Part shown: one piece after another, positions 2,863-10,154 of the stretch
Layout: each line of letters begins with the position of its first letter
Position numbering within the stretch: position 1 is the first letter of the stretch
Origin: Methanobrevibacter olleyae
GTDB taxonomy: Archaea > Methanobacteriota > Methanobacteria > Methanobacteriales > Methanobacteriaceae
Reading direction: 5' to 3'
NCBI GenBank assembly: GCA_015063035.1
Contig: SUTG01000014.1
Coordinates: forward strand, 1-40,454
Length of the DNA stretch: 40,454 nt
Notes under the pieces: generated by a model
The model's input: only the letters and a program-made list of their open reading frames with translations
Told to the model about the DNA's origin: nothing
Database searches by the model: none
Made by a program: the position numbers and the translations under genes

Positions 2863-3101
2863 GGAAAAAAGATAACACCCCCATTACCTTTTTTCCAAAA
2901 GAATAAGAATCACCCCCAATTCTTATCCCGACCTAAAGATACGATTCACCCCCAAATCATATCCTATAGAGATTGGCATCAAGAAATGATCAATCATCCA
3001 AAGCGATGATTGAATAAGAATCACCCCCAATTCCTATTCAAATCATAAGGAATACAATTCACCCCAGACTCATATTCCTTAGCTTATGAATAACGCATAA
3101 G
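2863..3101 (-). ncRNA. Candidate novel structured RNA: array of five hairpins with the same 8-nt loop TGGGGGTG
   Basis: Five hairpins follow each other. Stems (plus-strand coordinates) are 2863-2875/2884-2896, 2901-2910/2919-2928, 2936-2946/2955-2965, 3011-3021/3030-3040 and 3046-3059/3068-3081. Every loop is exactly 8 nt: CACCCCCA four times and CACCCCAG once on plus, so TGGGGGTG on minus. Stem sequences differ while pairing is kept. The seven non-Watson-Crick pairs I count that could wobble are all A-C on plus and therefore G-U on minus, which orients the RNA to the minus strand; there is one true mismatch (3058/3069). Loops are 35, 36, 75 and 38 bases apart. The double gap holds a hairpin without the loop motif (2990-2998/3005-3013), which shares three bases with the next stem. 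A sixth short stem (3083-3088/3096-3101) flanks the array. No convincing reading frame is present. I recognise no known RNA family. Confidence 0.7.
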
Positions 3102-3388
3102 ATTTATTTCTGCCTACTTTTCAATTAACCATTTTTTTAATAATTTGTGCGAATTAATTGGATTAGATCTTATTTTAATCAACCATAAAAATTTAGTGCA
3201 TTTATGAATGAGATAGCAAAAGGTGTTAAAGTCAAACAAACAAGAGAGGTTGAATCTACACTAATTCACTAACGAAACATCTTTAGTTTCTAAATTTTAA
3301 TGAAACTTTTAATGATTGAAAAAAATAAGCAAGACTTAAAATTTACTTAAGTTTTTTCTAATCACAATAAGTATTATACACATACTAG

Positions 3389-3396
3389 TATATAAA
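3389..3396 (-). promoter_or_regulatory. Candidate TATA box for the hairpin-array RNA
   Basis: The minus strand reads TTTATATA preceded by CGAAACA, a plausible BRE plus TATA arrangement. A start near 3367 would give about 265 nt of leader before the first hairpin. AACGAAACAT at 3271-3280 is an inverted copy of ATGTTTCGTT at 3396-3405. T-rich runs on the minus strand between about 2860 and 2790 could end the transcript. The extent of the RNA is therefore an estimate. Confidence 0.4.
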
Positions 3397-3405
3397 TGTT
3401 TCGTT

Positions 3406-3703
3406 CTTAAATTTAATGACACTTATCTAAAATCATATGACATATTCTTATTGATAAAAAACAATACCAAAAATAGAAAGAATGAAGAGAGAAAATAGGA
3501 AAATAAAGAGAAAATATTAGGAAAATAGAAAAAATAGAAAAAATAGAAAAAATAGACTAAATTAAAGCAAAAAGAAAATAAAAATCAAAAAATTACTATT
3601 GAATAAATTAAATTAGTTTTAATAAAAAAATTAAATTAATTTTAATAAAAAAATTAAATTAGTTATAATAAAAAATTAGATTAATTATAATAAAAAAATA
3701 AAA
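3406..3703. other. AT-rich intergenic region, no gene seen
   Basis: Simple A-rich sequence with repeated AAAATAGAAAAAATAG and AATTAAATTAATTTTAATAA segments. No open frame with a ribosome binding site and no stable hairpin were found. Confidence 0.6.
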
Positions 3704-4480
3704 TTAAGTAAAATCTTTATTAAATGCTTCTGTATCTTCTACACCGTTTGTATAATGCTTATTGTTTACATTATCTATAATCTCATCATCACCATGAAGG
3801 CGGTCTATATGATGACGGCCATTTGAATCATCATATTCCTTAATGTAATCTGCATCCTGACCAGACCAATAGTAACCGGCAGGCACATTATTTGATGAAC
3901 TTGATTGATTTGAAGCGGAACTTGTACTGTCAATGCCTGTATTGACACCAGTGCCATTAGTAGCATTTGCAGCAGTTTGATTCTCACCGGTCATGGTTTC
4001 TGTAGTGTTTGTTTCTTCATTGAAATATTGATACTTGACAGAACCAATCATATGCTCTAGCATTTCAGGGTCTTTACAGATGATCAAGATATTGTCATGG
4101 GTAACATGATTTCCAATGAAGGCCATGTAAGTTCCATTTTCCTCATTATGCCAAATGGTTTGATTGCCTAATGTTTCCTGAACGGAATTTGCTATGAAAT
4201 CATTACGGATATACTCCAATTCGACAGCTGCAACCTGATTGCCTTGAGCACTGTTGAAATACATAACAGTCAAATCATGCTGAGTGTCATTAATAAGGTA
4301 AATTCCATTTTTAATCACTGCAGTTGTAGATTGATCACTTATTGGCATGTCAATGCTGGAAGAGTCTGTAAGACCAACCCTATTATACTTAATGGTTTCA
4401 TCATAATTCAATAAAAAGAAAGAACTGGTTAAAACCACTGCAATCACTAACAATACCATTAATAAACGTCTTAAATCCAC
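3704..4480 (-). CDS. Membrane-anchored hypothetical protein
   Basis: This 258-residue protein is not recognised. An N-terminal hydrophobic segment (about residues 5-25) with Arg residues just before it should act as an uncleaved anchor, leaving the rest outside the cell. Residues about 45-155 form a mixed alpha/beta-looking domain. A Ser/Thr/Asn/Gly-rich stretch (about 165-200) looks like a linker, and the C-terminal 55 residues are rich in His, Asp and Tyr (HHIDRLHGDDE). The start is GTG with a strong GGGGAGG ribosome binding site; an overlapping ATG one base upstream is out of frame and meets a stop at once. It stands alone between intergenic stretches. Confidence 0.7.
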   Translation of the reverse strand: MDLRRLLMVLLVIAVVLTSSFFLLNYDETIKYNRVGLTDSSSIDMPISDQSTTAVIKNGIYLINDTQHDLTVMYFNSAQGNQVAAVELEYIRNDFIANSVQETLGNQTIWHNEENGTYMAFIGNHVTHDNILIICKDPEMLEHMIGSVKYQYFNEETNTTETMTGENQTAANATNGTGVNTGIDSTSSASNQSSSSNNVPAGYYWSGQDADYIKEYDDSNGRHHIDRLHGDDEIIDNVNNKHYTNGVEDTEAFNKDFT

Positions 4481-8899: not shown

Positions 8900-10108
8900 T
8901 CATATATAATCTGATGTCAAAAAATCTATGATGTTTCTGTGTTTTAATCCGCTTCCTGAAAAATCAAGTTTGTCCATGCTCAAAACATATTTGTCAAAGT
9001 TATCGTCGATTTTTGCAAGAGCGGAAAATTCCCTTTCAATTGTCTTATCATTCTCCAGCTTATATGTTACTTGGATGTAAATCTTTTCCTTAGCTTTTGT
9101 GCAGACGAAATCTATTTCCTTGTCATTAATCAATCCTATTTTTACATCATATCCTCTTCTGAGAAGTTCAATAAACACTATATTTTCAAGGATAGATCCC
9201 ATGTTTTCCATTTCACCATATTTTGCTTGGTAGAACCCATGGTCGGCCAGAAAGTACTTTTCATTGTGCTTCAGCACTTTCTTCCCTTTTATGTCTTCCC
9301 TTTGCGCTTGATATATGAAGCATGCATTCTTGGCATATAACAGATAATCAAGTATTGTATCCTTTGATATTTTCCTTCCCTCATGCTTTATGTATTTGAC
9401 TATGCTTCCTGCAGAGAAATTTTTTCCAATGTTCATTATTACATAATCAAGTATTCTGTTCAGCATATCCGTGTTTCTGATATTGTGCCTTGTGATAATG
9501 TCCTTTAGGAGTATTGTATTGTATATGTCCCCCAAATATGAGTACTTGTCTTCTGCTGCAACCTGCTGTATAGGAGGCATTCCACCATATTCAACATACT
9601 CCTCAAACAGCTCCTCCAAGTCGACAATATCCGTCTTTTCCATTTCCTTTTTGTATTGTATGAATTCGGCAAATGAAAAGGGGTATATGTTTATTTGATA
9701 GTATCTTCCGGAGATTAGCGTTGCCATTTCACCCGACAGCAGCTCTGAATTGGAACCTGTGATGTAAATGTCACAGTCAAGGTCTACCCTGTAGGCGTTT
9801 ATGCTTTTTTCCCAGTTTTTTACGTTTTGTATCTCATCAAATAGCAGATAGATTTTGCCCTTTGTGTTTTTAGTTAGGCCCATAATCAATTCATCAAGCT
9901 GCTTGAAGTTTTCTATTTTGTTGTATTTCAGGGATTCAAATGAGATCAAGAATATGTTTTCCTCATTTATTCCACGGCTTTTCAGTTCTTCCTGTATGCT
10001 TTTTAATAGATATGTCTTGCCGCTTCTTCTAACGCCAATTATGATTTTGACAGGTTCCTTATCAATTAATCTTTCAATCTGATTTAAGTATAATGTTCTC
10101 TTGATCAT
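8900..10108 (-). CDS. AAA+ ATPase with C-terminal DUF4143 domain
   Basis: This 402-residue protein belongs to the DUF4143 AAA ATPases common in archaea and anaerobes, whose role is not known. From the chosen start, Walker A is GVRRSGKT at 25-32 and Walker B is LLFDE at 89-93. A sensor-like TGSNSELLSGE follows, and the C-terminal half has the nuclease-like core typical of the family (EIDFVC, then YIQVTYKL). I chose the ATG at 10108, five bases after GGTGA; a TTG 12 bases upstream is also in frame but less likely. It lies between fni and IPK in an otherwise conserved isoprenoid block, so it looks inserted. Confidence 0.88.
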   Translation of the reverse strand: MIKRTLYLNQIERLIDKEPVKIIIGVRRSGKTYLLKSIQEELKSRGINEENIFLISFESLKYNKIENFKQLDELIMGLTKNTKGKIYLLFDEIQNVKNWEKSINAYRVDLDCDIYITGSNSELLSGEMATLISGRYYQINIYPFSFAEFIQYKKEMEKTDIVDLEELFEEYVEYGGMPPIQQVAAEDKYSYLGDIYNTILLKDIITRHNIRNTDMLNRILDYVIMNIGKNFSAGSIVKYIKHEGRKISKDTILDYLLYAKNACFIYQAQREDIKGKKVLKHNEKYFLADHGFYQAKYGEMENMGSILENIVFIELLRRGYDVKIGLINDKEIDFVCTKAKEKIYIQVTYKLENDKTIEREFSALAKIDDNFDKYVLSMDKLDFSGSGLKHRNIIDFLTSDYI

Positions 10109-10154
10109 TATTTTCACCAAGACCTTTCTTTATATGAAATCTTGTATTTTAAAA

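Follow-up and report, generated by a model that had tools for sequence, protein, structure and literature searches.

Described systems of four kinds come closest to the locus analysed here. CsrB/RsmZ small RNAs, which sequester the global RNA-binding protein CsrA, carry several hairpins with the same short G-rich loop on stems that vary, and in ToxIN, a type III toxin–antitoxin, tandem ToxI units of ~36 nt lie upstream of a same-strand gene for a ToxN-family nuclease, with a possible terminator between. Type I restriction–modification systems contribute M and S genes, and REP and MITE palindromes form multiple intergenic inverted repeats. The window (the whole stretch of DNA analysed: 40,454 bases, 33% G+C, from an assembly of 2.28 Mb in which it is contig 44) contains features reminiscent of each. 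Specifically, five minus-strand hairpins at 2864–3079 have differing stems of ~10–14 pairs each and a common loop core, UGGGGGUG, with the single variant CUGGGGUG, and the genes downstream encode a half-size HsdS and an HsdM of clear homology.

A hairpin array on the minus strand

The array loops read TGGGGGTG in four hairpins and CTGGGGTG in one, and follow one another at distances of ~35–38 nt with one gap of double length (Table 1). A sequence-only reading of this DNA had rightly described five consecutive hairpins with stems of 10–14 pairs and an 8-nt loop kept with one variant. It had also seen a ~36-nt spacing with a motif-less filler, of which the spacing and the hairpin at 2990–3013 are real but the filler sequence is not kept in relatives; the extent that it gave (2863–3101) covers the five hairpins, but its upper limit of 3101 takes in a separate conserved hairpin (3083–3101).

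Table 1 Features of the array locus, with positions in the window.
Feature	Positions	Strand	Remarks
Tandem operator-like elements upstream of array promoter: TGTCATATGATTTTAG (3427–3442), TGTCATTAAATTTAAGAAC (3403–3421)	3403–3442	−	Rank with the best-conserved noncoding blocks across 10–11 genomes; layout homologous to that of half-HsdS promoters at other loci of the family
TATA box of array RNA, TTTATATA	3389–3396	−	Invariant in 10 aligned genomes; start site predicted ~25 nt downstream (~3365–3370)
TTGTGATTAGAAAAAACTT	3349–3367	−	Near-invariant; position of the second operator of half-HsdS promoters; may also supply the 5' arm for the first stem of the RNA
TTTTTTTCAATCA	3313–3325	−	Conserved; complementary to TGATTAGAAAAAA at 3352–3364; candidate 5' closing stem
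Hairpin CTTATG...CATAAG without GGGGGTG loop, directly before array	3083–3101	−	Conserved on comparison with relatives
Array hairpin 1, loop CTGGGGTG	3048–3079	−	
Array hairpin 2, loop TGGGGGTG	3010–3041	−	
Hairpin without loop motif, in array gap	2990–3013	−	Not conserved in relatives
Array hairpin 3, loop TGGGGGTG	2935–2966	−	
Array hairpin 4, loop TGGGGGTG	2899–2930	−	
Array hairpin 5, loop TGGGGGTG	2864–2895	−	Closing pair A-T, not T-A
U-rich tract, repeated runs of 4–6 T	2788–2858	−	Candidate terminator of array RNA; similar tract in 10 of 10 genomes examined; termination presumed
Separate hsdS promoter: operator copy TTAACTTTAAGAAC (2774–2787) and AT-rich TATA-like stretch	2745–2787	−	Conserved
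Half-HsdS, 187 aa, one specificity domain (Methylase_S)	2145–2708	−	dN/dS 0.07–0.23
HsdM-like protein, 609 aa	269–2098	−	Catalytic motif IV lost; extra insert at ~residues 169–260; no hsdR adjoining

The minus-strand fold of the array region reaches −77.3 kcal/mol (z −5.3, equalled by none of 200 shuffles), but the plus strand is also strongly folded for its composition (z −6.4), so energy alone cannot pick the strand; the direction of wobble pairs and the relatives do. Counted over 41 distinct stems, defined by Watson–Crick pairs only, the isolated non-Watson–Crick positions read on the minus strand as 28 G-U and 2 A-C, which indicates RNA of the minus strand and extends the earlier remark that the wobbles are G-U on that strand. 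One-sided changes in orthologous units are likewise mostly to G-U. Across 34 distinct units, 84% of cells are paired, versus 62% after shuffling and 45–55% with the partners slid, the covariation score is 0.66 versus 0.27, and two-sided changes occur at all 12 pairs. These numbers are indicative: the alignment omits 10 poorly pairing or near-duplicate units, which flatters the result somewhat, and the units of any one array share ancestry through duplication.

While the stems vary, the loops hold a run of five Gs in 52 of 64 cases and of four in 11, preceded by U in 56 and followed by A in 57, the GGGGTG core itself being fixed by the search with which the loops were gathered. The A after GGGGGUG is retained even when mispaired, in C-A closing pairs. 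Rfam 15 yielded no match over the array at its gathering cut-off, with only a tRNA elsewhere in the window, and chance-level matches over the array region at a permissive threshold (E 0.9 or worse), in line with the earlier reading, which knew of no family with such a loop. Taken together, the relatives, covariation, wobble direction, single-locus distribution and conserved promoter uphold the earlier proposal of a conserved structured minus-strand RNA, and we hold it very probable that the array is a conserved structured RNA at all. From the arrangement of the promoter and the U-rich tract we infer an RNA of the minus strand running from ~3368 to ~2790, of ~0.55–1 kb and separate from the hsdS mRNA. 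In the putative closing stem, TTTTTTTCAATCA and TGATTAGAAAAAA are both nearly invariant arms, a pairing that covariation cannot probe.

Distribution among relatives

Arrays are found in 11 of the 19 genomes of the genus, one per genome, in the same slot and the same orientation, and comprise 3–9 units, as befits the modular array that had been envisaged. A two-loop pattern retrieved those of the window's genome and nine congeners, with zero matches in the reversed control, and the eleventh (G029) was located beside its hsdS homologue. The sequence-only reading had also suggested a covariance-model search of relatives and a test of covariation, and had named units scattered as DNA repeats as evidence against an RNA. 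Searched across 139 genomes of the family, a unit covariance model matched in those 11 genomes and at one isolated site in another genus. Covarying arrays are present in congeners, and the units keep to a single locus and a fixed orientation. A dispersed repeat or mobile element of the REP/MITE kind was rejected on the same grounds, the units lying at one locus per genome, and the hairpin model found units of the window's genome at the array locus only. Three genomes (G010, G050 and G090) were rejected as array carriers, as they had single weak matches only. Ordinary half-HsdS genes of other genera showed no arrays ahead of them, and no half-HsdS relatives were found in viral contigs; a pattern scan over all GTDB contigs returned many chance matches in unrelated GC-rich genomes and was uninformative.

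As far as the contigs reach, the gene order is ppaC, hsdM, half-hsdS, array, an orphan membrane-type gene, idsA, RNase J and fni. The conserved orphan gene (window 3704–4480; 258 aa, with an N-terminal hydrophobic segment and rich in Ser and Asn) lies upstream of the array wherever the contig extends far enough to show it and has no match in Pfam or NCBIfam; just beyond its 3' end is an A/T-rich direct repeat of ~23 bp in five copies (3579–3714). Farther along, an AAA_14/DUF4143 ATPase gene (8900–10120) has been inserted after fni, ahead of the conserved gene that follows, and is missing there in the relatives compared.

The cassette and the array are jointly missing in five congeners, one of which, G017, keeps both flanks and has no hsdM, hsdS or array between them. 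The IdsA of this genome is 94% identical to that of the window, closer than the 87% of the array-bearing G018, yet its locus is empty, which suggests that array and cassette were lost together; such joint loss could reflect mere adjacency. The syntenic site of G017 (L225, 10945–11501) holds its own tandem repeat of ~50 bp. In G033 (L158), where only three intact loops are left, a chimeric hairpin near the second loop combines the 5' arm of one unit with the 3' arm of a different one, as would result from a deletion fusing two identical GGGGGTG loops; this would be either a route of unit loss or an assembly collapse. The overall distribution points to a genuine RNA restricted to one genus of gut methanogens and to a fixed chromosomal spot. 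This genus, probably Methanobrevibacter sensu stricto, includes a main rumen methane producer, and one member, M. ruminantium M1, is in culture.

A degenerate methyltransferase cassette and its operators

The earlier reading overlooked the setting of the hairpins, namely a methylation-dead HsdM/half-HsdS cassette and operators shared with it. Motif IV, NPPF, is changed to S/C-Q/E-IPF in 12 of 12 array-type HsdM proteins (among them that of G021, whose contig stops short of the array position, a little upstream of hsdS), so that none at an array locus has the N-P-P-F/Y of type I modification enzymes, and motif I has turned from DPTCGSGS into DPCCGSAS or close to it. NPPF is retained in the canonical restriction–modification paralogues with full systems that were compared. 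N6-adenine methyltransferases are expected to lose adenine methylation when the motif IV asparagine is gone, and the array-type HsdM is expected to be catalytically inactive for methylation. The locus also lacks hsdR, its neighbours being ppaC and the genes of the idsA region. Low dN/dS ratios (0.07–0.19 for HsdM and 0.07–0.23 for HsdS) reveal purifying selection, which maintains both proteins. The motifs are partly degenerate (SQPPF and SNPPA) in the more distant half-HsdS relatives of G026 and G034, and these have no array, which implies that the two proteins can do without the RNA. An AlphaFold model of HsdM has a mean pLDDT of 58, with the insert among its least confident parts; a conserved Arg-rich patch in this insert is not claimed as an RNA-binding motif because it is missing from G018 and G029. 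In addition to a half-hsdS and two full hsdS genes, a separate type I locus on contig 13 of the window's genome (1049–9573; L230) has an hsdM whose NPPF is intact and a divergent gene of hsdR size.

The array promoter (~3349–3442) consists of tandem TGTCAT-type elements, the TATA box and then TTGTGATTAGAAAAAACTT, and ranks with the best-conserved noncoding parts of the locus. At other half-HsdS genes of the family, TGTC(N11–13)GACA palindromes often stand ~23–26 bp before and ~30 bp after a TATA box, far in excess of shuffled expectation at the individual loci bearing them, and the array promoter matches their operator–TATA and operator–operator spacing. At those loci the promoter stands directly before hsdS, whereas here at least ~600 nt, including the array, intervene. 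Genome-wide, the exact match to the operator core and one of the next-best matches are the array promoter and the hsdS promoter, two-mismatch matches being numerous and at the level of the reversed control. The palindromes flank TATA at fixed spacing before the half-HsdS of ordinary type I loci in several genera (L173, L178, L179 and L182–L188), suggesting self-regulation by half-HsdS/HsdM complexes at such loci, which the occurrence of this operator pattern across the family makes directly testable.

Candidate functions and comparison with described systems

Under the model that we propose, the array RNA would be made from an operator–TATA–operator promoter typical of half-HsdS loci, and the inactive HsdM/half-HsdS complex would, judging from the layout, bind this promoter without methylating it and thereby regulate both the array RNA and its own expression. 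Every hairpin would show the same loop, and one transcript could hold several copies of one partner, which would be either titrated, with the RNA as a sponge, or assembled, with the RNA as a scaffold. Constant loops, freely changing stems and a variable number of units favour titration or scaffolding of one partner, and a sponge role, which the earlier reading had suggested, is plausible. The partner would most likely be a protein recognizing UGGGGGUG(A), and HsdM/HsdS is one candidate, which would create a feedback loop. A genome search for loop targets found CACCCCCA only ~twofold over the reversed control, with no obvious target; of its 19 occurrences in the window's genome, four are within the array. 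To the full mechanism, from the promoter under inactive HsdM/half-HsdS to multivalent loops for one partner, we give slightly less than an even chance. More tentatively, a restriction–modification system may have turned into an RNA-based regulatory or ribonucleoprotein system, in which the methylation-dead HsdM/half-HsdS would be a dedicated regulator and/or partner of a new multi-hairpin RNA born in the leader between promoter and hsdS. The array's constant association with a catalytically dead type I methyltransferase suggests that domestication can turn restriction systems into gene regulators coupled to a noncoding RNA.

Other functions can be envisioned for the same RNA. As a ribosome decoy, it would pair through its loop GGGGGUGA with the 3' end of 16S rRNA and capture 30S subunits or compete with Shine–Dalgarno sites. 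The tail used, UCACCUCC, is taken from general knowledge, a search for 16S genes in the genomes compared having found none. Against GGAUCACCUCCU the loop forms eight contiguous pairs, one of them G-U, at −13.8 kcal/mol, compared with −14.7 for a perfect Shine–Dalgarno sequence and −8.3 for that of hsdS; the loop Gs are predicted to be unpaired with a probability of ~0.9–1, and the persistence of A at C-A closing pairs also fits. The better-pairing GGAGGUG, however, occurs in none of the 64 loops, and we regard a decoy as unlikely. The array could also be a cis-acting leader, a long 5' UTR of hsdS–hsdM acting by attenuation or RNA processing, given that it lies on the same strand immediately upstream with constant linkage and that a similarly built promoter drives hsdS directly at other half-HsdS loci. 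Yet between the array and hsdS lie a U-rich tract and a conserved operator/TATA promoter belonging to hsdS itself, and 3–9 units would be odd for an attenuator, which leaves this role improbable as well.

An explanation without any RNA, in which the inverted repeats serve HsdM/HsdS or another protein as sites for binding or recombination, draws on the equally good plus-strand fold for its composition and on the binding of interrupted palindromes by type I complexes that contain two half-S subunits. Conservation of pairing but not of stem sequence, the one-sided wobble (28 to 2) and an orientation fixed in all genomes make a DNA-level element highly unlikely. Still less credence is due to a G-quadruplex RNA, whose tetrad core would be formed by the runs of four to five Gs from at least four loops: such runs are present in nearly every loop, but the flanking U and UGA are almost as conserved as the Gs, although a quadruplex could form without them, and G033 has just three intact loops.

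The proposed multivalent RNA, an apparently undescribed one, would give archaea a candidate hairpin-array RNA with a clear sequence signature. No earlier description was found in the literature searched, subscription literature lying outside the search, nor was a system joining a multi-hairpin RNA with dead HsdM/HsdS; we know of none of such composition, and its being a new kind of system is a possibility. Compared with type I restriction–modification genes, the array loci are without hsdR, have a half S and have lost motif IV throughout. REP and MITE palindromes differ from the array, which is confined to one locus per genome in fixed orientation. ToxI likewise consists of tandem units, but these are near-identical pseudoknot repeats, whereas the array units are simple hairpins with differing stems, and the genes downstream are homologues of HsdS and HsdM rather than of a ToxN-family nuclease. 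By its many invariant loops on covarying stems, the array RNA would be closest to CsrB/RsmZ in its way of working, yet it falls outside that group: its loop is UGGGGGUG(A) instead of CsrA's A(N)GGA site, and it is archaeal and tied to a dead HsdM/half-HsdS cassette.
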